Source: Anaerolineae bacterium (GTDB lineage: Bacteria > Chloroflexota > Anaerolineae > Aggregatilineales > Ch27). Taken from it: a stretch of 64,000 nucleotides of DNA. The stretch lies in assembly GCA_013178165.1 (NCBI GenBank), contig JABLXG010000006.1, forward strand, positions 1 through 64,000, written 5' to 3'. A program made the position numbers and the translations under genes. The notes beneath the pieces are model-generated. The model saw only the letters and a program-made list of their open reading frames with translations. It did no database searches and was not told where the DNA came from. Shown one piece after another: positions 11,995 through 41,880 of the stretch. Every line of letters begins with the position of its first letter. Within the stretch, counting starts at the first letter, position 1.

Positions 11995-14034
11995 ATGCCG
12001 GAAGATAAGCGTCTCATTGTTGCGGAAGACCTTTACCGGATGGTTGGCGTGCAGGATCCACAGGTCAGCCCGGATGGCTGCCAGATTGCCTTTGTACGGC
12101 TGATCCGCGACCGCCACCAGAACAAAGCGCGTCAGTCGATCTGGCTGGCGGCAACCGATGGGGGCCGGCTGCGCCAGTTCACCAACGGGGAAGCTGCTGA
12201 CACCGTGCCGCGGTGGAGTCCTGACGGCACTTCGCTGGTGTTTGTCTCCACCCGAACCGGCAAACCGCAGCTCTATCTCATCCCGGCGGATGGCGGCGAG
12301 GCCATACAACTCACTTATATGCCCAACGGCGCAACAGCGCCGGCCTGGTCGCCCGACGGAAGGCAGATCGCTTTCTTGTCATCTGTGCGCCCGGAAGAGT
12401 GGCAGGCTGAGACCGACAAAGAAGACCTGCCGCCCGCTGGATTAGACGAACAGGACAGAGCCAAGCCGGACGAAGAAGCTGAGAAGAAACGCATCGATCC
12501 GCGCGTGGTAGAGCGCCTGCCCTACCGTAGCGGCACAACCTACTGGGACGGGCGCTATGCGCAGGCCTATGTCCTGCCGGTGACGCCTGACCCAGACGGC
12601 AGGCGACGCCCCCGCCGGCTGACCGGCGAGCCGCGGGACTATGGTACACCCTACTGGTCTCCGGATGGCCTGGCGTTGTACTGTATTGCCAGCCGCAAAC
12701 CGGAACACGACGCCCCCTGGATGTTTAACGCCGTTATCCGCATTGACGTCGCGAGCAGCGTGCAGACTCAGCTTACCGGCGATGGGTGGACGTGCCACGA
12801 GATCAGGCCCTCATCGGACGGCCGGTGGCTGGCCTGCCTGGCCCACCCGGACCGACTGCCAACGAACCAGTTTTCCCGTCTGGCGCTCCTGCCAGCGGCT
12901 GGCGGCGAACTCCAGCTACTGGGAGGAATGCCCGATCGCAACATTATCGCTGTCGAATGGGCGGCGGATAGCCAGTCTCTGCTCTTTGCAGCGCAGGATG
13001 AGGGCAGCGAACTGCTCTACCGGATCGACATGAGCGGCGGACAGGCCAGGCGGATCATGCAGCTGGGTGCAACGGTAACCGGCTTCCACACCGGGCCGGA
13101 TGATGTGGTGGCCGCGACGATCTTCACCGCTGACGGTTACCATGAGCTGTACGCCAGCACCGCCGGTAGCGAGTTCCGGCGTCTCACGGACTTTAACCGG
13201 GCGTTTCTGGAGTCAGTCAGCGTGGCCTCTGCGGAAAAGCTACACTACACCAGCCCGGACGGCACACCGGTGGACGGCTGGGTGATCCGCCCTCCGGATT
13301 ACGAAGCAGGGAAGCGCTACCCCCTGGCAGTGAATATCCACGGCGGCCCGCAGGGGATGTGGGGCGCCAGCACGCCGACTATGTGGCTGGAATGGCAGCA
13401 CCATGCCGCCAGCGGCTACGTAGTGTTCTTCTGCAATCCTCGCGGTTCAACCGGATATGATGAACCGTTCATGCTGGCCAACCTGGGCGACTGGGGGGAC
13501 GGCCCCATGCGGGACGTACTAGCGGGTGTTGACCTGCTTGTCGAACAAGGGCTGGCCGATCCTGAGCGGCTGGCTATTACCGGCGGCTCGTATGGCGGTT
13601 ACCTGACTACCTGGATCATCGGCCACGATCAGCGCTTCAAAGCCGCGGTAACCCAGCGCGGCGTCTACCATCTGCTGGCCTTTCACGGCACAACTGATAT
13701 CCCGCTGTTTATGGCTTCCAATGTCGGCGCGGAACCGTGGGAGGATCCGCAGGCGTTCTGGCGGCTTTCACCGCTAGCTTACGCTGAACAGATCACTACC
13801 CCGCTGCTGATCCTGCACAGCGAGAATGACTTCCGGGTACCCATCTCGGAGGCGGAGCAGTTGTTTGCGACGCTTAAGCGACTGGGGCGGACTGTCCAGA
13901 TGGTTCGCTATCCGCGCGAAGGGCATGAACTGTCGCGCTCCGGCGAGCCAGCACATATCATCGACCGTCTCCAGCGGATTGTCAGCTGGTGGGATCACTA
14001 CTGTAAGTCGCCACAGGCGGAAGCGCCAGCCTAG
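11995..14034 (+). CDS. S9-family prolyl oligopeptidase / acylaminoacyl-peptidase
   Basis: A 679-residue serine peptidase that cleaves short peptides or acyl-amino acids. The N-terminal beta-propeller (about 20-420) shows repeated SPDG blades (WSPDGTSLVF, WSPDGRQIAF, WSPDGLALY). The C-terminal alpha/beta hydrolase carries the triad: Ser532 in GGSYGGY, Asp612 in SENDFRVP and His644 in EGHELS. No signal peptide is seen, so it is probably cytoplasmic. ATG 11995 follows AGGAGAGG and lies 2 bp after the NUDIX stop. A charged insert at about 135-165, rich in Glu and Lys, lies within the propeller. Confidence 0.93.
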   Translation: MPEDKRLIVAEDLYRMVGVQDPQVSPDGCQIAFVRLIRDRHQNKARQSIWLAATDGGRLRQFTNGEAADTVPRWSPDGTSLVFVSTRTGKPQLYLIPADGGEAIQLTYMPNGATAPAWSPDGRQIAFLSSVRPEEWQAETDKEDLPPAGLDEQDRAKPDEEAEKKRIDPRVVERLPYRSGTTYWDGRYAQAYVLPVTPDPDGRRRPRRLTGEPRDYGTPYWSPDGLALYCIASRKPEHDAPWMFNAVIRIDVASSVQTQLTGDGWTCHEIRPSSDGRWLACLAHPDRLPTNQFSRLALLPAAGGELQLLGGMPDRNIIAVEWAADSQSLLFAAQDEGSELLYRIDMSGGQARRIMQLGATVTGFHTGPDDVVAATIFTADGYHELYASTAGSEFRRLTDFNRAFLESVSVASAEKLHYTSPDGTPVDGWVIRPPDYEAGKRYPLAVNIHGGPQGMWGASTPTMWLEWQHHAASGYVVFFCNPRGSTGYDEPFMLANLGDWGDGPMRDVLAGVDLLVEQGLADPERLAITGGSYGGYLTTWIIGHDQRFKAAVTQRGVYHLLAFHGTTDIPLFMASNVGAEPWEDPQAFWRLSPLAYAEQITTPLLILHSENDFRVPISEAEQLFATLKRLGRTVQMVRYPREGHELSRSGEPAHIIDRLQRIVSWWDHYCKSPQAEAPA

Positions 14035-14037
14035 CAG

Positions 14038-14066
14038 TTGTGCGCTAACCTGCCCGGCGCTACACT
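14038..14066 (+). promoter_or_regulatory. Promoter giving a probably leaderless mRNA
   Basis: TTGTGC (14038-14043), 17-bp spacer and TACACT (14061-14066). The expected start site seven bases downstream is the A of ATG 14073 itself. No Shine-Dalgarno precedes that ATG, which fits a leaderless transcript. Confidence 0.5.
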
Positions 14067-14072
14067 GACGGT

Positions 14073-16802
14073 ATGAACGTATCGCATGCATGGCTCAGTA
14101 GCCTCCTGGCTGCCCTGATTATGCTGGGGGGTATGGTGATGCTTGGCACGGAGACAAGGCCCCTGGCCGCTCAGGAGCCTTCCCCGCTGCCTCCCGGGAT
14201 GGTCACCCCTGTCCCGACCAGTGGTTCTGCGCCTGTCCGCGTTTACGATCGTCTCGAATGGGTTGTCAATATCTCGTTTACGCCTGACAACCCATACGAT
14301 CCCGTTGAAGCCGATGTCTTTGGCGTGTTCACCGCACCGGATGGACGCGAGCTGGTGATGCCTGGCTTCTGGATGCAGCCAATGGCCCAGACCTGCGAGG
14401 AGGATTGCGCCATCGAGGTACTGGAACCCGCAGGCGAACCGGGCTGGCGGATCCGCTTTGCGCCGGATGCAGCGGGCCAATGGGCGTACCGCTTTCAGGT
14501 GCGGCGGCAAGGCGGGCCAGCGACAACGGTTGATTCCGGCGTCTTTGAGGTGCAAGCCGGGCCAGGGCGCGGTTTTGTCCGGGTCGCCGAGAACAGCCGT
14601 TACTTCCGCTTCGATGATCAGAGCGCCTACTTTCCCATCGGCCACAACTTGGCGTGGTCATGGGATGGAGCAGGCGGCGTCTTCGCCTACGACCGGTGGC
14701 TGCGCAACCTGGCGGCCAATGGCGGCAATTATGCCCGGCTGTACGTTGACACACCCTGGTTTATTGGCTTCGAATGGCAGCCACCGGTAGGAGACTACAC
14801 CGCCGCGCAGGATGATTTCTGGCGGCTGGATTTCATCCTGCAGCGGGCGGAAGAACTGGGCATCTACCTGGATGTGGTGGTGTTGTGGCATCAGGCACTG
14901 ACGAACTATGGCGGCACACCGGTTCTCCCACCAGCCCAGCCGCGACGCGCGGATACCAGCGCCGATTGGCGGCGCAACCCTTACAATGCAATCAACGGCG
15001 GCCCGCTGGCCAGCACCACCGGGTTCTTCACCGAAGCGCGGGCGCGGGAGCTGTTCCGGCAGCGACTACACTACTTGGTGGCGCGGTGGGGCTACAGTAC
15101 CCACATCTTCGCCTGGGATTTACTCAGCGACGCTGACCGCGTCCTGGGCTACAGCCCAGAAATTGTGCTGCCGTGGCTGGAGGAGATGTCGGCCTACCTG
15201 CGGGCAACAGACCCTTACGATCACCTGATCACAATCGGCTCGGCGGAAGCGCCGCTGGAGTTACTGGATGCGCCAGGGATTGACTTTGGACAGGTGCGCT
15301 TTTATCAGCGTCGCCCCCTGGTCGATCCGGTTGATCAGGTGTTGAGCATCAGCCGCCTGATCAGCGATGCACGCCTGCGCACCGCCCGGCCAGTGATGCT
15401 CACCGAGTTCTCTCTCAGCCCCTGGTATGAACCAGCCGATGAAGACCCAACCGGCGCGCATATCCGGGATACCGTGTGGGCCAGCGTGATGGCCGGGGCA
15501 GCCGGGTCGGGCGCGTCCTGGTGGTGGGATACCTATCTGGAGCCGCTGGAACTCACGGAGATTTACCGGCCTCTGGCTCAGTTTGCGGCAGGCATCCCCT
15601 GGCCTGCGCTACGCCTGGAACCGGTCCAAACTCAGCTGCTCTCCGACAGACCTGCTGACTATCTTCCATTGCGGGTGGATGGCTATGACCGGCGCTTCCT
15701 GGCTCCCGATCTGCCGGAGCTTGGGCCGCATACGCTGACGGCTGATGGCCCTTCTCCGGGAGTAGGACTGCTCTCCGGCTTCCTGTACGGGCAGACGTAC
15801 AACAACCAGCAGCGAATATCGCATCACTACATCCTCAACGCACCGGTTGACACGGTGTTGACTGTCGGCGCGGGCAATGTATCGCGCCAAGCCAAGGCTC
15901 GCCTGGTCGTGGCGCTTGATGGACGCACCGCAGTCGAGGTGGAACTGGCGGCGGGGACAACGGGGGCAGCGGTGAGCATCCCCCTGCCAGCAGGCAGGCA
16001 TGAGCTGGAACTGCGTAACGACGGAGACGACTGGCTTCAGATCGAGCACATGACCATTGCCCATTACGTGCCACCGCTGCGAGCGCTGGCGCTCGTGGAC
16101 AGCAACGCGGGTCTGTTGCTGGCCTGGTTTCAGAACCGGGCTTACACCTGGCAGACCGTTGACAGTGCGCCACCGGTGGGACAGGTATTCCGCGCTGTAG
16201 TGGATGGCATGCCCGCAGGCGAGTACCGTCTCGAGTACTGGGACCCCTTCAGCGGGCAGGTCATTGGCGAAGAACGGACGCGAGTCAGACCAGAGGACGG
16301 CGGGCAACTGGCTTTTGACCTGCTGCCGATTGCACAAACGCTGGCCGTCCGGGCAATGCCGGTCACTGGTGTAGCGCCTGTCCCATCTCCTACTGCATCT
16401 GTCACGGCGACCGCAACCGTAACGCCAACACTGACGGCGACCCCCACCTCTACATTGACGGCTACGGCAACGCCGACAGCAATACCAACAAGAGCATCGA
16501 CCGCGACGCCCACGCCATCCCTGACCGCAACACGAACGGCATCCCCGACCACCACACCAACAGCGACCCGCACGCCGTCAGCGACTGCAACATCAACAGC
16601 CACGCCGTTAACACCAACGACGACGCCAACAGCGTCGCTTACCAGGACGCGTACGCCAACGATGACGCCCACACCATCGGTAACGCCCACGGTGCAGCCA
16701 ACGCGCACGCCAGTCCCGACCAACACCCCTGCCCCGACCGCGACGCTGACTGCAACGGCGCTCCGCACGCCCCCGGTAGCGGTTTCCGCCGTGTCCGAAT
16801 GA
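14073..16802 (+). CDS. Secreted DUF5060/TIM-barrel glycosidase-like protein with Thr/Pro-rich tail
   Basis: A 909-residue exported protein. Signal peptide about 1-34 (ending LAAQ), a DUF5060-type beta domain (about 50-145), a GH clan-A-like barrel (about 160-510), and beta-rich domains. A long low-complexity tail of Thr/Ser/Pro/Ala (about 770-900, DNA 16380-16770) looks like an extended surface stalk. In the barrel the usual strand-4 WExxNE is replaced by WDLLSDAD, while the strand-7 Glu appears kept in MLTEFS, so classic retaining catalysis is doubtful. The protein may bind or slowly cleave glycan. No sortase motif is seen. The gene is single, with its own promoter, and ends at a bidirectional hairpin. 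Confidence 0.75.
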   Translation: MNVSHAWLSSLLAALIMLGGMVMLGTETRPLAAQEPSPLPPGMVTPVPTSGSAPVRVYDRLEWVVNISFTPDNPYDPVEADVFGVFTAPDGRELVMPGFWMQPMAQTCEEDCAIEVLEPAGEPGWRIRFAPDAAGQWAYRFQVRRQGGPATTVDSGVFEVQAGPGRGFVRVAENSRYFRFDDQSAYFPIGHNLAWSWDGAGGVFAYDRWLRNLAANGGNYARLYVDTPWFIGFEWQPPVGDYTAAQDDFWRLDFILQRAEELGIYLDVVVLWHQALTNYGGTPVLPPAQPRRADTSADWRRNPYNAINGGPLASTTGFFTEARARELFRQRLHYLVARWGYSTHIFAWDLLSDADRVLGYSPEIVLPWLEEMSAYLRATDPYDHLITIGSAEAPLELLDAPGIDFGQVRFYQRRPLVDPVDQVLSISRLISDARLRTARPVMLTEFSLSPWYEPADEDPTGAHIRDTVWASVMAGAAGSGASWWWDTYLEPLELTEIYRPLAQFAAGIPWPALRLEPVQTQLLSDRPADYLPLRVDGYDRRFLAPDLPELGPHTLTADGPSPGVGLLSGFLYGQTYNNQQRISHHYILNAPVDTVLTVGAGNVSRQAKARLVVALDGRTAVEVELAAGTTGAAVSIPLPAGRHELELRNDGDDWLQIEHMTIAHYVPPLRALALVDSNAGLLLAWFQNRAYTWQTVDSAPPVGQVFRAVVDGMPAGEYRLEYWDPFSGQVIGEERTRVRPEDGGQLAFDLLPIAQTLAVRAMPVTGVAPVPSPTASVTATATVTPTLTATPTSTLTATATPTAIPTRASTATPTPSLTATRTASPTTTPTATRTPSATATSTATPLTPTTTPTASLTRTRTPTMTPTPSVTPTVQPTRTPVPTNTPAPTATLTATALRTPPVAVSAVSE

Positions 16803-16831
16803 CAGTGCACCGGCGATAACCTGCAATAATG

Positions 16832-16868
16832 AAATCAGCCCATCCAATGAATGAGGATGGGCTGATTT
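16832..16868. terminator. Bidirectional hairpin between convergent genes
   Basis: A perfect 14-bp stem, AAATCAGCCCATCC (16832-16845) and its complement (16855-16868), with a 9-nt loop. It sits between the convergent stops at 16802 (+) and 16894 (-). The flanking T/A tract is short. Confidence 0.75.
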
Positions 16869-16893
16869 ATGCCGACGGTCGGCAAGCCTGTTG

Positions 16894-18402
16894 TTACTTG
16901 CTGATTCCCCTGACCGCCGCGTATGCCGGGCGCGGGCCAGATGGGCCGATCAACGACCACAGACACTGTTCGGAGTTCGCCCCGGCAGCCTCGCAGAAGT
17001 TGAGATTCCACAGGAACATCGGACCGACATAGTTCAGGTTACGGGCAATGTCGAAGGCGGCAACGATGTACTGAGCCTGCTCATTCAGATCAGTGTAGGC
17101 AACGAACTCGTAACCGGCAGGCGGCGCGCCGCCAATGTCCGCGTTGGTGCCCCAGCCGAACTCGGTCGCCCAGATGAAGGTCTGCGAATCGCCGTTGGCG
17201 ACCATGATGTTGCGGTAGTCACGCAGCGTTTGCAGGAAGAAGAAGCTGGGATGGTCATCATGGGTGGGCACGCCGGGCGTATTGTTGCAGCAGACAGACG
17301 CAGGCGGGTTGGCCCAGCCATTGGGATGCGCCCCCAGCGCATCCGAGTAATTGGCGACACCGTTGGCGTACATGGCTCGCAGGTAAACCCGGTCGTCAAT
17401 GGCGTTGATACCGTCATTAAAACCGGTAGGCGCCAGACCACCAGCAACCACAATCGCCGCGGGATCCTTGGCCTTGATCGCGTTATAGGCCAGCCGCAGT
17501 AGTTCCACATACTGCGCGGCGCTGATTGGGTGGCTGCTGCTGTTCCACTCACGACGCAGGTTCTGCTCGTTCCAGATCTCATAGGCGTCCACACGCCCGC
17601 GATAGCGCTCCGCCAGTGCGCCAACAAAGTTGGCATAGGTCTGGAAGTTGGCGGGCGGGCCGTCTTCCTGTGTCGAATCGCGCGCCCAGGCCGGCGCCTT
17701 AACCACGCTGAAGAGGATCTTGACGTTGATCGACTCCAGCGTGTTGACCATCTCGTCGAGCGCCGCCCAGTTGATCTGGCCCTGGTTCGGTTCGTAGACT
17801 TTCCACTCAATCTGCTGCTTGACCCAGGTCATGCCCAGCTCAGTGACTCTGGCAGCAACCGCCGCCTGATTCTGGTTAGGCAGGTGAACCTGGATACCAT
17901 AGGCAAAGGCCACGTTCGGGGTGGTGCCGCCACCTGGGACCGGCGTCGGCGTCGGCAACGGAGTAGTGCCGCCACTACCAGGAATGGTAAGCCTCTGACC
18001 AACGAAGATCAGGTTGGGATTAGCAATGTTGTTGAGCGTGACCAGTGTGCGGATGGTAGTGCCATAGCGAAGCGCAATGCGGTACAGAGTCTCGCCGCGC
18101 TGGACAATGTGGATCGACGTCTGGCCGGTGCCACCGCCGGGCGCCTGCGTGGGTGGTGGGGTCCCTCCACCAGCGGTACCGGGGATCTTCAGGACCTGCC
18201 CGACAAAGATCAGGTTCGGGTTAACAATACCGTTGGCCTGAACGATGGCGCTGATGGTCGTGCCGTATTGCAGCGCGATGCGATACAGGTTCTCCCCGGG
18301 TCTGACCACGTGGGTTCTTTCGCCTTGTTGTGCTGTGGCAGTGGCTGCTCCAAAAGCCAGGATCACCACCACGGCCAGGGCCACAGCAAGTGCACGTCTC
18401 AT
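16894..18402 (-). CDS. Secreted LysM glycoside hydrolase (clan GH-A, GH39/GH5-like)
   Basis: A 502-residue exported protein. The signal peptide (about 1-25, ending ATATAQ) is followed by two LysM repeats (about 30-75 and 97-140), each containing a YRIALxYGTTI core and ending in VGQ-L-IP, which bind peptidoglycan or chitin-like N-acetylglucosamine polymers. A Pro/Gly linker leads to a TIM barrel (about 165-500) with acid/base Glu in EIWNEQN and nucleophile Glu in WATEFGWG. Polysaccharide cleavage at the cell wall is inferred; the substrate is unknown. ATG 18402 was preferred over 18420 because the AGGAGG lies between them. A hairpin at 16832-16868 ends the transcript. Confidence 0.85.
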
Positions 18403-32297: not shown

Positions 32298-34334
32298 CTA
32301 CTTGCTGAGGTCGATTTCCACTACCGCCAGCCGGTGATCGGAAGCGTCGCTGGCCAGAACGCCGCGCCCCGTCGGTAGCACATTGCGCAGCCACAGGTAG
32401 TCAAAGCGCAACTGGATCGCCTCGCCACGCAGCAACGTTGCCGAACGGTCAACCGCAAGCCCGTCAAAGGGATCGCTGAAGCCAACCTCAACCAGACGTT
32501 CATACAGCGCCGAGCCTGGCGTATTGTTGAATGTGCCCCCCAGAATCACGCGCCCGACGACCCCGCCGGGATGATCGGTCCCGATTAACGCCAAAACCTC
32601 CTGAAGTTGCAGCCACTGATCCTGCTGCTGAAGCTCCAGAACGCTGGACTCCCGCGCATACAGCAGGCCTAGCCATGTGTTATACACATCCAGCACACCT
32701 TCATCAGGCCGGACCTGCACCCGCTGTACGCCCGTTTGCATTCCCTGACTCGTTAACAGCGTGCCTGTCTCCAGCGTGATTGGCACCCGCGAAAGCACGG
32801 CCAGCCCCTGCAACGACTCATTGGTAGGGAAGAAGCGCACATCCATCCCCAACCGGCGTCCCAGCCAGAGTGCCTGATCCACACCAAAGGACACCAACCG
32901 CCCGGCATCTACTTCCTGGAGCAGCACCACGTCAGCCCCGCTCTCCCAGATCGTGTTGGCCATCTCCGCCAGGTTGTAGTCAAAGTAGAGGCTATAGCCA
33001 CCATGGATGTTGTATGTGGCAACGCGAATTCGATCGGCATTGCCCGTCCGGGCAATCGCCGGTGGCAACACGGCCAGCGTCACCAGGATCGCGCTGGCAA
33101 AGACACCCCCCAGCCCGGCCAGCGTCTCTACAAGCACCGCTCGTTGCCAGGGGATACGCCGCCGTGCATCCATCATCGGGATGGCCGCCAGTGCCACACC
33201 TACCAGTATCACGCCCAGCCCCATCCCGCGCATGGCCCGCAGTAGATGGCTCAAGCTGGCCAGCCCGCCGCCAAAATCGCGCACAAAGGCATATTCATAC
33301 GTAAAGAAGTCAGCGCCAAACAACACAGCCAGAATCACAAACGCTGTTACCAGCGCCACGCCGGTGATGTCGCGCTCTTCCTTGCTGACCGGTCGGGCAA
33401 TCCACCACAAGTTCAGCGTCAGCAGGAACTGCGCCACGATCAGGGCTGCCGCCGCCACCGCCCCGCTGAAACGTGCACCGATCACCACCAGCAGGCTGAT
33501 CAGAACCAGCCAGAACCAACCACGCCAGTGGGCATCCACAAGCGTCAATAGCCGACGGGCAAGGTCGCGGGCTTCAGGCACCAGCGTGAGCGCCGTCGCC
33601 GCTGCCAGCCACGGGGCCACCACGGTGTAATCCGTCTTACTCCAGTGCGCTACCGCATTGGGCAGGCCCAGCAGTGCACACTCAAGGAACAGGTATGCGC
33701 CCAGCGCCAGCCCTCCGCCCAGGGCAATACCCGAATAGGCGGCCACAGCCCGGAATGGAGCGCCACCGCTGAAGGCCAGCCGGATCACAGCAATCAAAGC
33801 CAGCGCAACCGACAAACCCGTCTGAATTGGCAGAAACGCCTCCGACCAGGTGATATCCATCGTCTGGCCGTACGCCCGCACGATCTGGTCCAGCGTTACC
33901 CCGATCACGAGCAACACAGCAAAGCGCGCCGGAAATTGCCGGGCCACTGCCGCCAGGTACAGCCCCGCCCCGGCCACGACGATAGCCGCGCCCAGAACGC
34001 CGGTGAATGGCTCATTCAGAGTCATGAACACCCGCCCGATAGCGACAGCCGCCACTCCCAGAGCGAATGCGACCGGCCGCCGCGCCAGGAGGAAGGCCAG
34101 TAGCGGCATGAGCGCGGCCACCACCACGGCCACCACTTCCGCCTGGGCAACCTCAGGCAGGACAGCGCCGGGAGGAGGTGGGTCGCTAATGCCCAGGCGC
34201 AGCACAATGTCCGCGCTGGAGACGTGCGCATACAGCGCCCCCAGCAGAAAGCGAAGCGCCTGGATAAAGAACCAGCCTACCAGACCAGCCTCAACCAGCC
34301 AGCCTGCCCGCCAGAAAGCCTCACGTCGACCCAT
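32298..34334 (-). CDS. Polytopic membrane protein with C-terminal endonuclease/exonuclease/phosphatase domain
   Basis: A 678-residue protein. About 12 hydrophobic helices fill residues 10-430. A C-terminal EEP-fold domain (about 440-676) starts with RVATYNIHGGYS and contains LLQEVD and ASDHRLAVV. The usual GDFN is GTFN (Thr at about 601), so a key acidic residue is missing while the Asn, Glu, Asp-His remain. Such fusions may act on phospholipid or cell-wall intermediates, but activity here is uncertain. ATG 34334 has GAGG upstream. It converges on rnc with a gap of 7 bp and no visible terminator. Confidence 0.75.
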   Translation of the reverse strand: MGRREAFWRAGWLVEAGLVGWFFIQALRFLLGALYAHVSSADIVLRLGISDPPPPGAVLPEVAQAEVVAVVVAALMPLLAFLLARRPVAFALGVAAVAIGRVFMTLNEPFTGVLGAAIVVAGAGLYLAAVARQFPARFAVLLVIGVTLDQIVRAYGQTMDITWSEAFLPIQTGLSVALALIAVIRLAFSGGAPFRAVAAYSGIALGGGLALGAYLFLECALLGLPNAVAHWSKTDYTVVAPWLAAATALTLVPEARDLARRLLTLVDAHWRGWFWLVLISLLVVIGARFSGAVAAAALIVAQFLLTLNLWWIARPVSKEERDITGVALVTAFVILAVLFGADFFTYEYAFVRDFGGGLASLSHLLRAMRGMGLGVILVGVALAAIPMMDARRRIPWQRAVLVETLAGLGGVFASAILVTLAVLPPAIARTGNADRIRVATYNIHGGYSLYFDYNLAEMANTIWESGADVVLLQEVDAGRLVSFGVDQALWLGRRLGMDVRFFPTNESLQGLAVLSRVPITLETGTLLTSQGMQTGVQRVQVRPDEGVLDVYNTWLGLLYARESSVLELQQQDQWLQLQEVLALIGTDHPGGVVGRVILGGTFNNTPGSALYERLVEVGFSDPFDGLAVDRSATLLRGEAIQLRFDYLWLRNVLPTGRGVLASDASDHRLAVVEIDLSK

Positions 34335-34536: not shown

Positions 34537-36516
34537 ATGGAACATGTTGACAAGCTTCTTATCGGCGGCGTTGTCGTCACCATGAACCAAAACTACGACG
34601 TTTTTCCAGATGGCGCAATAGCCGTCAGAGGCAACGCGATTGTCGCGGTCGGCCCCCGGCAGGTCATTACTGCTGCCTATACTGCCACTGAAACAATGGA
34701 CTGCAGCGGTCAGATCATCATGCCGGGCCTGATCAACACTCACACGCACGCACCAATGACCCTCCTGCGTGGCCTGGCCGATGACCTGCGGCTTGATGTC
34801 TGGCTGATGGGCTATATGATGCCCGTTGAGCGTGAGTTTGTCAGCCCTGAATTTTGCTACTATGGCACGCTGCTGGCCTGCGCGGAGATGATCCTGAGCG
34901 GCACCACCTGCTTCGCTGACATGTACTATCACGAAGGCGATATCGCCCGCGCAACCGTGGAAGCCGGGCTGCGTGCCGTGCTTGGCCAGACCGTCCTCAA
35001 ATTCCCTTCTCCCGATGCAGCCAGCTATGAGGAAAGTCTCGCCTACACCCGGCAATTCATTGAGACGTGGAAAGGACATCCGCTGATCACCCCCGCCGTC
35101 GCCCCCCATGCGCCATACACGAACACAGAGGAAACGCTGCGGGCTTGCACGGCACTGGCCCGTGAGTACGATGTTCCTCTGCTCACCCACTTTGCCGAAA
35201 CACGTCTGGAGGTCGAGGAAAGTCGCCGCGAACATGACATGGCTGTCGTTTCCTGGGCCGAGCGACTGGGGTTGCTTGATGCCAAGGTACTGGCTGCGCA
35301 CTGTGTGCACATTGACCCGGATGAGATGCGCCTGCTCCACAACCATGGCGCCCGCGTCGCCCACAACCCTAGCAGCAATCTCAAACTGGCCAGTGGCGTC
35401 GCCCCGGTGCAGGAAATGCTCAACCGCGGCCTGATCGTGGGCATTGGCACGGACGGCACTGCCAGCAACAACGATCTCGACATGTTTGACGAAATGCGCC
35501 TGGCTGCTTTTGTTGCCAAGGCAGCGACTTACGATCCCACCGCCCTGCCTGCCCGCACAGCACTGGCCATGGCAACCCGCATGGGCGCGGAGGCGCTCTT
35601 CCTGGGCGATGTAACGGGCAGCCTGGAGCCGGGCAAACGAGCGGATGTGATCACGCTGGACCATACGCCCTTGCACAATACGCCGCGTTTTCAGCGCGAT
35701 CCTGATGCCATCTATTCGCAGATCGTCTATGCCGCCAAGAGCACCGATGTCACCCATGTGATGGTCGACGGGCGCTGGTTGATGCGCGACCGTCAATTGC
35801 TCACGATCGATACGGCTGCGTTACGGGAGATCGCCGCTGACTACGCCCGCCAAATTGACGCTTTCCTGATCGCCCGCGAGGGGAATGTCCTGAGCAAACT
35901 GGTAGCCATTGGTGGCCTGGAACAGGAGGAAAGCTTCGAGATTCAGGTCAAAGCCCACACCGCTGATCCCCGTATTATCGATGCCGTCCTGACCAGCAAA
36001 GAAGTCCAGATCGTCCGGCATACCCACTATCGGCAGTACGATACGTACTTCCTGTTCAACGATGCCAGGCAGGGTCGGGTGCGCTATCGTGAGGACGACA
36101 GCATTAACGACCGGGACGAAGTCATCAGCGTTCGCAGCCGCCTGACCTACACCATGCCGACCAAGGAACGCGAGTTCGCCCGCGCTATTCTGCTCTCGCG
36201 CTCTCAGTTCATCGCGCCGGCGGATCGCCCGTTGCGCTTCTACCGGGAGTACTTCCAGCCAGACATCGAACGCACCATCGAAAAGGAACGGCGGCGCTGG
36301 CACATCCTTTACAAGGGCATCCTTTTCTACATCAACCTTGACAAACTCAAGGAGCCTGCCCACGACGGCTATTTCCTGGAGATCAAGAGCCGCACCTGGT
36401 CGGCCCGCGACGCGGAGTACAAAGCAGAGATGGCCACCGAAATCATGTCCCTGCTGGGCATCACACCGGAACACACCATCCGCGCCGAGTACCTAGAGCT
36501 GGCCACAGGCCGGTAG
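34537..36516 (+). CDS. Amidohydrolase (MTA/SAH deaminase-like) fused to a CYTH domain
   Basis: A 659-residue bifunctional-looking protein. Residues 1 to about 450 form a metal-dependent amidohydrolase of the 5-methylthioadenosine/S-adenosylhomocysteine deaminase group: HTHAPM metal His pair, HFAET, HCVHIDPDE and GTDGTASNN. Residues about 465-655 form a CYTH (triphosphate tunnel) domain: EIQVK near 468 (variant of ExExK), QYDTYF, GRVRYRED, EKERRRW and YFLEIKSR. CYTH proteins bind triphosphates (thiamine triphosphate, tripolyphosphate, ATP for cyclases). I know of no common fusion of this kind. Purine deamination is the likely main reaction; the CYTH role is unknown. Strong Shine-Dalgarno at ATG 34537. 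Confidence 0.85.
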   Translation: MEHVDKLLIGGVVVTMNQNYDVFPDGAIAVRGNAIVAVGPRQVITAAYTATETMDCSGQIIMPGLINTHTHAPMTLLRGLADDLRLDVWLMGYMMPVEREFVSPEFCYYGTLLACAEMILSGTTCFADMYYHEGDIARATVEAGLRAVLGQTVLKFPSPDAASYEESLAYTRQFIETWKGHPLITPAVAPHAPYTNTEETLRACTALAREYDVPLLTHFAETRLEVEESRREHDMAVVSWAERLGLLDAKVLAAHCVHIDPDEMRLLHNHGARVAHNPSSNLKLASGVAPVQEMLNRGLIVGIGTDGTASNNDLDMFDEMRLAAFVAKAATYDPTALPARTALAMATRMGAEALFLGDVTGSLEPGKRADVITLDHTPLHNTPRFQRDPDAIYSQIVYAAKSTDVTHVMVDGRWLMRDRQLLTIDTAALREIAADYARQIDAFLIAREGNVLSKLVAIGGLEQEESFEIQVKAHTADPRIIDAVLTSKEVQIVRHTHYRQYDTYFLFNDARQGRVRYREDDSINDRDEVISVRSRLTYTMPTKEREFARAILLSRSQFIAPADRPLRFYREYFQPDIERTIEKERRRWHILYKGILFYINLDKLKEPAHDGYFLEIKSRTWSARDAEYKAEMATEIMSLLGITPEHTIRAEYLELATGR

Positions 36517-36621: not shown

Positions 36622-37278
36622 CTAGGCCGAGCTATCCAGCCGGAAGCCATGACCGCGCACCGTCACGATGTACTGGTGATGCGGATCAACTTCAGCCAGC
36701 CGGTCCCGCAGCCGGCGCACCAGGGCGTCAATGGCCTGTTCGCTGACCCCCTCGCTGGCCGCCTCTGGCCAGACGGCCTCAATCACCTGCTCACGGGTAC
36801 AGACCGCGCCGCCTGCGTCGTACAGCAGCTGTAACAGCCGATACTGCGGCAGGCTCAGCGGCGGCAGGACTTCCTGCTGGCCGATGAACACGCGCCGGGC
36901 CTCCCGGTTGAGCGTCAACCGGCCCTGGAGCTGGCCGGGGTCAAAGGCTACCTCGATCGTCGCATCCGATTCGGAGTAAGCAATTCTGACCGTTCGCGCC
37001 AGCTGGATGCGATCGCCATCCACAAGCTGGCGCGGTTGCCGCAATGGCTCTCCGCCGACCCAGGTGCCATTCTTGCTGCCCAGGTCTTCAACAAAGTAGC
37101 TATCGCCTTCCCGCCAGATGCGCGCATGCTGGCGGGAAATCGCCCGATCACGCAGCACCAAGTTGCACTCTTCGCCGCGCCCGATCACAAAAACGTCCTG
37201 GTCAATTACCACACGCAATCCAACATGCTCACCCTCCTCTACGGTGAGCATCGGTCGATCACTGATCGATCTGGTCAT
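36622..37278 (-). CDS. FHA-domain winged-helix transcriptional regulator
   Basis: A 218-residue regulator. The FHA domain (about 10-100) has VIGRGEECNLVL, ISRQHARI and DLGSKNGTWVGG, all phosphothreonine-binding loops. The OmpR/PhoB-type winged helix (about 120-215) has LPQYRLLQLLYDAGGAVCTR, IDALVRRLRDRL and VRGHGFRL. There is no receiver domain. It probably reads threonine phosphorylation by Hanks kinases (two are encoded in this window) and changes transcription. ATG 37278 follows AGGGGAG. It resembles EmbR-like logic with the domains in reverse order. Confidence 0.9.
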   Translation of the reverse strand: MTRSISDRPMLTVEEGEHVGLRVVIDQDVFVIGRGEECNLVLRDRAISRQHARIWREGDSYFVEDLGSKNGTWVGGEPLRQPRQLVDGDRIQLARTVRIAYSESDATIEVAFDPGQLQGRLTLNREARRVFIGQQEVLPPLSLPQYRLLQLLYDAGGAVCTREQVIEAVWPEAASEGVSEQAIDALVRRLRDRLAEVDPHHQYIVTVRGHGFRLDSSA

Positions 37279-37772
37279 GCCCAACTCCCCTGTACATATC
37301 GTGCACAGCACAGCCAGGCCTGCCAGTGACGTCGGCGTACGCCCGCAGACCCTGCTCGGCGTTATCCCTGCCTGGAATCAGCAGCCCCTCTTCTGGACTG
37401 CCGCAGTGACGTGCTGCGCCAGGCCGATTCTCTTCTTCTCCTGGTTTGCCAGGTTCTGCCACAACAGTGTTGAATACAACGAGCTTGCCAGTACAATTAG
37501 CACAGATTCGGTGATCACCCGGTCAGGCGATCAAGATTGGCTGCGCCACTCCCCGGGAACTGGCCTCCCACCGTCCCGGGAGATCATGAACGTGGCCCGG
37601 ACGCTATTTCTCGGTCTTTTGCGGTACGTTCCCGTTAACCGGGTCATCTGAGTCGCAGAATCGATATCAGTATACTCCAATGCGCCGCCAGGTCGCAACG
37701 GAAGGGCAATGCCAAGACTTAGTATATATATTACAACTTGACCCTTTCCTAGCTGCAGCAGACTGAGGAAAC
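37279..37772. other. 494-bp divergent intergenic region
   Basis: No supported gene. It contains a dyad CCCGGGA (37552-37558) and TCCCGGG (37574-37580), and AT-rich promoter-like stretches upstream of cinA (TATACT near 37670, and tatatatatt at 37721-37730). It is long for this compact genome; an operator for the FHA regulator or a small RNA is possible but not shown. Confidence 0.35.
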
Positions 37773-38969
37773 ATGAACGCTGAAATCATCAGTATTGGCA
37801 CCGAGCTGTTGCTTGGCGAGATTGTCGACACCAATAGCGCCCATATTGCCCGTTCCCTGCGCGACATTGGGCTGGACCTGTATTTCACCACCACCGTAGG
37901 CGACAACCAGGCCCGCATCACCCACGCGATCGATATCGCGCTGGACCGGGCGGACATTGTTATCACCACCGGCGGCCTCGGGCCAACTGTCGATGATGTC
38001 ACGCGGCAGGCCGTCGCCGCGGCTACCAACCGGCCACTGGTGTTTCAGCAGGCGCTTTTCGACCAGATTGCTGCCCGGTTCGCCCGCATGGGAAGCCCGA
38101 TGAGTGAGAACAACCGCCAGCAGGCGTTCATCCCAGAGGGTGCGCTCCCCATCGAAAACCCGGTAGGAACGGCGCCCTGCTTTGCCCTGGAGACTGAACG
38201 CGGAGTTGTGATCAGCCTCCCCGGTGTCCCCCATGAGATGAAATACCTGCTGGAACAGGCCGTCATCCCTTACCTGCGGGAGCGTTTCCACCTGACCAGC
38301 ATCATCAAAGCGCGTGTTCTCCGCACCGCCGGGATCGGTGAGAGTGCCGTCGACGCCGCCATTCTTGACCTGATGACCCTCGCCAACCCGACGGTAGGGT
38401 TGGCGGCGCATACCGGACAGACCGACATCCGCATCACGGCAAAAGCCGAAAGCGAAGCCGTCGCTGACGCCATGATTGCCGCCATTGAAGCGCAAATCCG
38501 CGCACGACTGGGGGAATACATCTACGGTCTAGAGAAAGAGACTATCGAAGCCGCGTTGATCCAGGAGCTTTCGCGGCTGGGGATGAAGCTAGCCGTCAGT
38601 GAGACTGGCCTGGGCAATCGTCTCAGCAGCCGTATCCAGGCCGTAGGCGGGGCCGAGTACATCCTCAGCGGTGTGCAGCAGTTTGAAACGCCGGAAGCCC
38701 TCTATGCAACCCTGGCCAATGCCCAGGAACTCTCGCTTGAGCAACTAAGCATCGCTGCGGCCAGCCGGGCCAGGGAAAGCTTCCACGCCGACATTGCCAT
38801 CGCCGTGATCATGCGCCCTGACGCCGCCCTGATCGGTGTGGCCACACCCCGCGAGACCAGGACGCGTATCTTCCGCTTCAGCGAGCAGGATGGCCACCCC
38901 TTCACCTGGGCCAGCACCTGGGGCATGGCTCTGGCCTGGCACTGGTTGCATCAGCAACCTGCGCCCTGA
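37773..38969 (+). CDS. cinA: CinA-like protein (MoaB/Mog domain plus degenerate CinA C-domain)
   Basis: A 398-residue CinA-family protein. The N-terminal molybdopterin-binding-like domain (about 1-170) has the COG1058 hallmarks EIISIGTELLLGEIVDTNS and TTGGLGPTVDD, linked to ADP-ribose pyrophosphatase activity. The C-terminal domain (about 250-395) corresponds to NMN deamidase (PncC) but its motifs are altered: the usual AESCTGG reads VSETGLG, and the TGIAGP loop is missing. NMN salvage by this protein is therefore doubtful. ATG 37773 follows GAGGAAAC. It ends at a 12-bp-stem terminator. Confidence 0.88.
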   Translation: MNAEIISIGTELLLGEIVDTNSAHIARSLRDIGLDLYFTTTVGDNQARITHAIDIALDRADIVITTGGLGPTVDDVTRQAVAAATNRPLVFQQALFDQIAARFARMGSPMSENNRQQAFIPEGALPIENPVGTAPCFALETERGVVISLPGVPHEMKYLLEQAVIPYLRERFHLTSIIKARVLRTAGIGESAVDAAILDLMTLANPTVGLAAHTGQTDIRITAKAESEAVADAMIAAIEAQIRARLGEYIYGLEKETIEAALIQELSRLGMKLAVSETGLGNRLSSRIQAVGGAEYILSGVQQFETPEALYATLANAQELSLEQLSIAAASRARESFHADIAIAVIMRPDAALIGVATPRETRTRIFRFSEQDGHPFTWASTWGMALAWHWLHQQPAP

Positions 38970-40931: not shown

Positions 40932-41880
40932 CGCATTCTCTCAAGGCAAATGCGACTCAGCGAAACGAGCGGGCGTGAGCATGCCGAGTGAGAGATGGGG
41001 GCGCCGGTGGTGATAGTAGTCGAGAAAAGCATCGGCATACTGCTGGGCCAGCTCCAATTCATCGCCCCGGAACTTGAGAGCGCCAAACTCCTCACGGCGC
41101 AGCGTGCCGTTGAAGGCTTCAATGAAAGCCTGTTCGTTCTTCTTGTAAGCCCGCGCGATACGATGCTGATCCGCCCAGCGATGCATGCCCTCAGCGCACT
41201 CGGCTTTGAATTCTGACCCGCCATCGGTTTGCAGGAGGGACACGCGCCCGAATACCGCCATCAACTGCTCCAGGGCAACCCGGCCATCGGCGGCCTGTAA
41301 GGAGGGGCGCATGACAATCGCCGCTTCGCGGGTGAAGGTGTCAATCGCCGTGTAGGCGTACACCTCCCCCAGGTTGACGGTATCGACCTGCACCACCTGG
41401 CGCGGTCCGGTGGCACGCTGCACCGGCGCACCCTCGGGCTGGCGGTGATGCTTGCGTAAGACCAGATGGCGCTTGAGAATGCGATAGACCGTGCTGCGGC
41501 TGAGGTCAATGCCTTCCTGCGCCAGCACGTACACGACCTTCTCCCCGCAGCAGTCGCGATACTCCCGCCGGATACTCAATACCCGCTGCACCACATAGCC
41601 CGGCGTCTTGCGCACTCGGCGTCCTTTCTTCGCCTGCTTGAAATAGGCCACATAGCCCCGAATGCCCCGCATCCGAATGCCTTTGAGCCAGCGATAGATC
41701 GTCGCCCGATGCTTCCCCAGCTGCTCAGCAATCTCATCCACCCTGTGCCCGACTCCTTCAATTCCCATGCCACTTGAATCTGTGTTATAGTGTCCATCGT
41801 GCGGCTCCTGTGATTGGGTTGTTTGTCTCGCAACCACAACAACTTTATCACGGAGTCGCATTTCTATTGAGAATACTGCG
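40932..41880 (-). mobile_element. Complete IS481-like insertion sequence (copy 2)
   Basis: A 949-bp element bounded by 5-bp direct repeats GAAGG (40927-40931 and 41881-41885). Its ends are imperfect inverted repeats that share TCTCAA-N3-AAATGCGACTC near the tips (left 40939-40958, right complement) and a CGCA at the extreme end. It has one transposase gene reading leftward. The right 126 bp are nearly identical to 1-126 of the window. It is inserted between tlyA (stop 41888) and lepA (start 40845), 8 bp after the tlyA stop. Size, IR and single DDE gene fit the IS481 family. Confidence 0.88.
40941..41797 (-). pseudogene. IS481-like DDE transposase, apparent frameshift near the N-terminus
   Basis: DDE/RNase H-fold transposase. 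The main frame encodes an HTH (VDEIAEQLGKHRATIYRWLK), an integrase core with QVDTVNLGE and LQTDGGSEF, and the final Glu in QAFIEAFNGTLRREEF, all intact. The natural start, ATG 41797 with AGGAG, reads about 16 residues (MDTITQIQVAWELKE) in a frame shifted by one base from the main frame. One base appears missing around 41738-41748. Translation could restart at an internal ATG or GTG, or use -1 frameshifting, but no classic slippery heptamer is seen. It is called a pseudogene with caution. Confidence 0.7.

Follow-up and report, generated by a model that had tools for sequence, protein, structure and literature searches.

A predicted adenosine-type deaminase fused to a remodelled CYTH tunnel domain in Chloroflexota

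Introduction

CYTH proteins are found in every domain of life, but what they do in the cell is for the most part unclear (PMC8233210). In the ten largest CYTH clusters, multi-domain members have been described with CHAD and phosphoribulokinase partners (PMC8233210). The chemistry of the tunnel depends on two metal sites. In AtTTM3, metal site 2 is an acidic patch made up of E2, E4, E90 and E171, with K76 orienting E2 (PMC4641920, Martinez et al. 2015). Metal 2 activates the attacking water, and metal 1 is placed on E169 (PMC4641920). Mutation of E2, E4 or E169 in AtTTM3 strongly reduces PPPi hydrolysis, and hydrolysis is impaired when E4 of AtTTM3 or the equivalent residue of ygiF is mutated (PMC4641920). 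The matching residues of SaTTM are E5, E7, E135 and E137 (PMC8233210, Vogt et al. 2021). An HF motif located before ExExK is specific to the class IV adenylyl cyclases (PMC8233210).

The locus described here lies in a window of 64,000 nucleotides from an Anaerolineae bacterium, the whole stretch of DNA that was analysed, and encodes a tunnel domain which has much in common with these proteins. The tunnel topology, the plug helix, the RxR and KxR motifs, the first glutamate of ExExK and the metal-1 glutamate are common to PH1819, SaTTM, AtTTM3, ygiF and the window protein, whereas the latter carries ExQxK, ExK and a threonine in place of the LTYK lysine. Unlike ordinary TTMs, it is placed behind an amidohydrolase and is not joined to CHAD or to a kinase-like domain. 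Arabidopsis TTM1 and TTM2 resemble it in being multi-domain proteins whose TTM part has neither of the standard motifs, ExExK and ExE (PMC8233210), but they differ in their phosphoribulokinase-like partner, their occurrence in plants and amoebae, and their reported use of pyrophosphate. Yeast Vtc4p is similar in having metal site 1 without site 2 and in carrying basic residues where the acidic patch would be (PMC4641920), although it is eukaryotic and has different partner domains. The N-terminal part has the fold and all metal and catalytic residues of the MTA/SAH deaminases of C. violaceum (4f0r/4f0s), P. aeruginosa (4gbd) and T. maritima (TM0936). It differs from them by the added helical linker and C-terminal tunnel domain, and its scores do not attain the NCBIfam equivalog cut-offs. 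As far as can be judged from sequence, the protein is thus a known type of deaminase joined to a divergent CYTH member that falls outside the catalytic CYTH groups. The original prediction did not recognise this as an established architecture, and no report of an amidohydrolase-CYTH protein was found in the open-access papers searched; an automatic annotation of it may already exist.

Results and discussion

The fused gene occupies positions 34537..36516 of the forward strand, on which all of its parts described below are located. It begins with an ATG at 34537, ends with a stop codon at 36514-36516, contains zero internal stops and is preceded, approximately 10 bases 5' of the ATG, by AAGGA. 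Its product, an MTA/SAH deaminase-type amidohydrolase followed by a CYTH/TTM domain, comprises 659 amino acids and has full-length homologues. The deaminase domain (residues 1-440, 34537..35856) was delimited by Pfam, NCBIfam and PDB-sequence matches and by the predicted structure, and the tunnel domain (residues 466-659, 35932..36513) by profile matches and fold comparison. Between them the model places a helical linker (residues 441-465, 35857..35931), in which R447, E448 and K454 are conserved. The AlphaFold2 model of the whole fused protein reached a pLDDT of 86. The protein had been described as a true fusion and not two genes, which agrees with the single continuous frame and with the fused open frames found in dozens of independent genomes; the latter rule out mis-assembly.

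Proteins carrying both domains are recurrent. The full-length fusion is present in 50 of the 61 nearest genomes (the window genome included), with one further copy cut by a contig edge, and in 62 of 301 genomes drawn from the phylum, namely 33 of the 38 sampled genomes of the same class (again including its own) and 29 that belong to five other families. Each carries one copy, none of the copies is plasmid-borne, and the open frames span at least about 650 codons, save that of L069, which stops at a contig edge. The unfused form was never seen in the genomes surveyed. The nine genomes without the fusion encode unfused amidohydrolases at 27-40% identity and no close unfused orthologue, and the unfused paralogues stop near residue 440, where the added C-terminal part starts. 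Among the 74 fused sequences which formed the conservation set, the distances of the deaminase domain and of the CYTH domain were strongly correlated (Mantel r 0.87, null maximum 0.11), as expected for a single old fusion inherited as a unit. Among the best 80 of 542 matches, the organism names were those of Chloroflexota MAGs or Roseilinea, save one labelled Pleurocapsa. This record (L091), titled Pleurocapsa minor after a cyanobacterium, has the fusion; its genome placement is in the window's order, and the record name therefore looks wrong.

The N-terminal domain matches Amidohydro_1 (PF01979) with E=2.9e-80 over residues 60-414 of the window protein. Its closest solved structure among PDB sequences is the C. 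violaceum MTA/SAH deaminase 4f0r (E=2.1e-104, residues 5-440), which also fits the whole-protein model with a TM score of 0.93 of the target. The complete metal site of MTA/SAH-type deaminases that had been read from the sequence is indeed there: H69, H71, H218, E221, H255 and D306 are all invariant in 74/74 homologues, including the HxH ligands H69 and H71 (34741..34749). The loop that follows HxH (D83-E98, 34783..34830) is also conserved, with D83, L86, D87, V88, W89, L90, Y93, P96 and E98 invariant; the confidence of the model is low at residues 80-95. D87 was considered as a hallmark of the fused form and rejected, as the unfused paralogues mostly have D or E there too. None of the NCBIfam models compared was reached at its cut-off (PRK09045, 469 bits against 540; PRK15493, 288 against 779; PRK07228, 374 against 522). 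By its sequence the domain is of the MTA/SAH type, yet it fits no named equivalog.

The assignment of the C-terminal part required more than a family search. The window protein matches Pfam CYTH (PF01928) with E=0.038 and 14.3 bits, below the cut-off of 23.2, and its isolated C-terminal domain scores 18.7 bits. The original prediction was to fall if residues 460-655 gave no CYTH match above threshold; taken literally, this is the outcome for the window sequence by itself, but its relatives, the profile alignment and the fold overturn it. CYTH was matched by 14 of 18 homologous C-terminal domains (best 1.3e-8); eight fused proteins of related genomes score above the Pfam cut-off, and in one set four of the eight tested do so. 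The profile-profile alignment of the fused-protein C-terminal domain with the ordinary CYTH proteins that these genomes also encode gave E=2.8e-6. A PDB-sequence profile search with CYTH-domain alignments returned no match at E 10, and a fold comparison was therefore needed for the assignment. The AlphaFold2 model of the isolated C-terminal domain (pLDDT 87) shows eight strands and a C-terminal plug helix in the CYTH order. It matches PH1819 (Z 18.8), SaTTM (16.3) and AtTTM1 (15.6), the class IV cyclases together with SaTTM giving Z 16-17. The structure prediction thus resembles 4f0r in its N-terminal half and CYTH proteins (Z 16-19) in its C-terminal half. The fold matches listed include no VTC chains, which does not count against kinship with VTC. 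On homology and predicted fold, residues 466-659 are best described as a CYTH/TTM tunnel. A C-terminal part other than CYTH, or a fusion produced by errors of assembly or frame, would be in keeping with the sub-threshold Pfam score of the window sequence; against the agreement of relatives, profile alignment and fold, and the dozens of genomes with the fused form, the chance of this is negligible.

The motifs quoted from the C-terminal part by the original prediction exist in the sequence, but the first of them, EIQVK, departs from the canonical ExExK. In strand 1, E468-x-Q470-x-K472 (35938..35952) is invariant in 74/74 sequences and has glutamine in place of the second glutamate. In strand 8, E615-x-K617 (36379..36387), which the profile alignment places on the ExE of ordinary CYTH proteins, is equally invariant (74/74) and has lysine in place of the metal-2 glutamate. 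In T537-Y538-T539 (36145..36153) of the window sequence, the same kind of alignment puts T539 at the lysine of the ordinary LTYK. The basic lining is preserved, with R516-x-R518-E519-D520 of strand 3 (36082..36096), a predicted phosphate-binding RxR, and K583-x-R585-x-R587 of strand 6 (36283..36297), a predicted phosphate-binding KxR with an extra arginine, both invariant in 74/74. As regards the hallmarks of catalytic TTM/ThTPase proteins, this lining is present, but ExExK and ExE are changed to ExQxK and ExK in all 74 sequences. By comparison, ten ordinary CYTH proteins encoded in these genomes retain ExExK, LTYK or LTFK, and ExE. The HFxxxxExExK motif of class IV adenylyl cyclases is absent, the residues before E468 being GLEQEESF.

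Projected onto the characterised enzymes, the replaced residues are E4 of AtTTM3 or E7 of SaTTM (Q470), E171 or E137 (K617) and K76 or K69 (T539), and the kept ones are E2 or E5 (E468) and the metal-1 glutamate E169 or E135 (E615). Judged from these alignments, metal site 2 is gone, and site 1 and most of the basic phosphate contacts are retained. The tunnel therefore looks suited to holding a phosphate chain and not to hydrolysing it in the ordinary way. Consequently, what had been called a good CYTH pattern stands for the CYTH fold but not for the working enzyme which it implied, given the replacement of metal-site-2 residues (E to Q, E to K and K to T). The suggestion that the protein couples deamination with polyphosphate or cyclic-nucleotide chemistry becomes less likely, because site-2 residues are replaced.

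The tunnel could still be catalytic, with one metal or with K617 replacing metal 2, and would then make the protein bifunctional, acting on a phosphate compound tied to nucleoside metabolism, for example the PPPi of SAM synthesis or a Vtc4-like transfer. The invariance of the lumen residues and the retention of E468 and E615 agree with such an activity, as do the functioning of Vtc4p with site 1 only (PMC4641920) and the reported pyrophosphate use of AtTTM1/2, which lack the signature motifs (PMC4641920, PMC8233210). By-products of the SAM cycle would also suit a deaminase of the MTA/SAH family. However, the equivalents of E4, E171 and K76 are lost, and E4 mutants of AtTTM3 or of its ygiF equivalent are impaired in hydrolysis; moreover, 56 of 61 related genomes already encode an ordinary CYTH protein above the cut-off. 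A bifunctional enzyme is on balance unlikely, but it is the strongest competitor of the reading preferred below; altered metal catalysis may take place in the tunnel, since the first glutamate of ExExK, E468, is retained.

The way in which conservation is distributed along the strands bears on the role of the tunnel. E468/Q470/K472, D502/Y504, R516/R518, K583/R585/R587, N600/D602 and E615/K617 show zero variation in the 74 sequences, and these frozen tunnel residues alternate with variable neighbours along the same strands. Such alternation is the pattern expected if selection acts on the lumen and not on the outer surface, and we infer from it that the frozen residues face the lumen. A purely structural CYTH domain, serving oligomerisation or stability, would have precedents in the TTM folds of Med18/20, which are apparently no longer active (PMC4641920) and were also retrieved by the fold comparison, and in SaTTM, which is a dimer (PMC8233210). 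A scaffold, though, would have no need of charged lumen residues that never vary while the outer faces do, and this role is quite improbable.

The preferred reading, to which we assign a probability of about 0.5, is that of an adenosine-type nucleoside deaminase with a regulatory, phosphate-chain-binding tunnel, as suggested by the sequences and the models. The N-terminal amidohydrolase would deaminate an adenosine-type nucleoside at C6, giving an inosine analogue for salvage. The CYTH tunnel, which has lost its metal-2 site but kept the metal-1 glutamate along with most of the Arg/Lys triphosphate lining, would bind without hydrolysing a ligand for which PPPi, short polyphosphate or NTP are candidates. 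Docked via the conserved helical linker, the tunnel would tune the deaminase to the phosphate or energy state. Regulation by a triphosphate ligand had been proposed beforehand as one option; it is reasonable, and the changed tunnel appears to fit it better than catalysis. The wider proposal of a class of allosteric deaminases, present in two Chloroflexota classes, in which a metal-stripped TTM tunnel senses triphosphate, polyphosphate or NTP, is tentative and falls short of probable. If true, it would mean that in bacteria a TTM tunnel has given up catalysis and become a binding module, and a built-in sensor would tie the salvage of purine nucleosides or SAM by-products to the cellular phosphate state. 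As the fusion is single-copy, never separated and made to an enzyme of known chemistry, the deaminase rate would be a direct readout of what the CYTH tunnel senses. The fixed ExQxK and ExK pattern may also be used for finding further remodelled tunnels.

The substrate of the deaminase may be sought among MTA, SAH, 5'-deoxyadenosine and adenosine, which are candidates. Three explanations based on missing enzymes were tried. The absence of SAH hydrolase as the reason for a SAH deaminase was rejected, as SahH is encoded in 30/31 genomes; the absence of adenosine deaminase as the reason for the fusion was likewise rejected, as a classical adenosine-deaminase-family protein is found in 53/61. Salvage of MTA by deamination alone is weakened by the MTAP encoded in the window genome. 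With SahH, adenosine-deaminase-family proteins and MTAP encoded elsewhere, the fusion serves no substrate uniquely. The window genome (G000:C27) also has a cluster of unfused amidohydrolases (L171:3045-4511, 12392-14143 and 15566-16927) of SsnA-like, adenine-deaminase-like and 8-oxoguanine-deaminase-like types.

The neighbours of the fusion vary by clade, with coaE in Chloroflexia, cinA in Anaerolineales and housekeeping genes in the window, and gene context therefore names no pathway. Here Chloroflexia and the other class names of fusion-bearing clades are those to which we presume the genomes belong. In the window, the gene is preceded by one for a predicted membrane protein with a C-terminal Exo_endo_phos (endonuclease/exonuclease/phosphatase) domain (32298-34334, reverse strand; PF03372, 2.2e-9) and followed by one whose domain matches are FHA and an OmpR-type winged-helix DNA-binding domain (36622-37311, reverse strand). 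Each of these two was near the fusion in 29 of the 82 loci compared. The CinA gene (37773-38969 in the window) was near it in 15 of the 82.

In six Chloroflexia loci (L061-L065 and L071), coaE, which encodes dephospho-CoA kinase, lies directly downstream of the fusion, at a distance of -3 to 137 bp. This linkage might mean that the tunnel grips the substrate of the deaminase by its phosphate tail, in which case that substrate would be a nucleotide or coenzyme and not a free nucleoside; the holding of a chain would also account for binding without hydrolysis. The deaminase domain, however, aligns throughout with nucleoside deaminases, and none of the Anaerolineae loci examined shows the coaE linkage, so that a substrate of this kind is very unlikely. 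For the regulated nucleoside deaminase favoured above, a suitable neighbour is inosine/guanosine phosphorylase (PNP), which would suit an enzyme yielding inosine analogues. It adjoins the fusion in G023, L119 and L127 and lies one gene off in G196; the linkage is rare, with one case of adjacency in the 301-genome sample, and PNP was rejected as a constant operon partner, being linked in only four loci. A short protein whose N-terminal part has a single hydrophobic segment is encoded after PNP in different genomes (L070:5392-6207, which has no Pfam match, and L172:8548-9336). Further along the window, directly beyond lepA, lies a transposase-like gene (40941-41861, reverse strand) with an integrase core (rve, rve_3) and an HTH domain.
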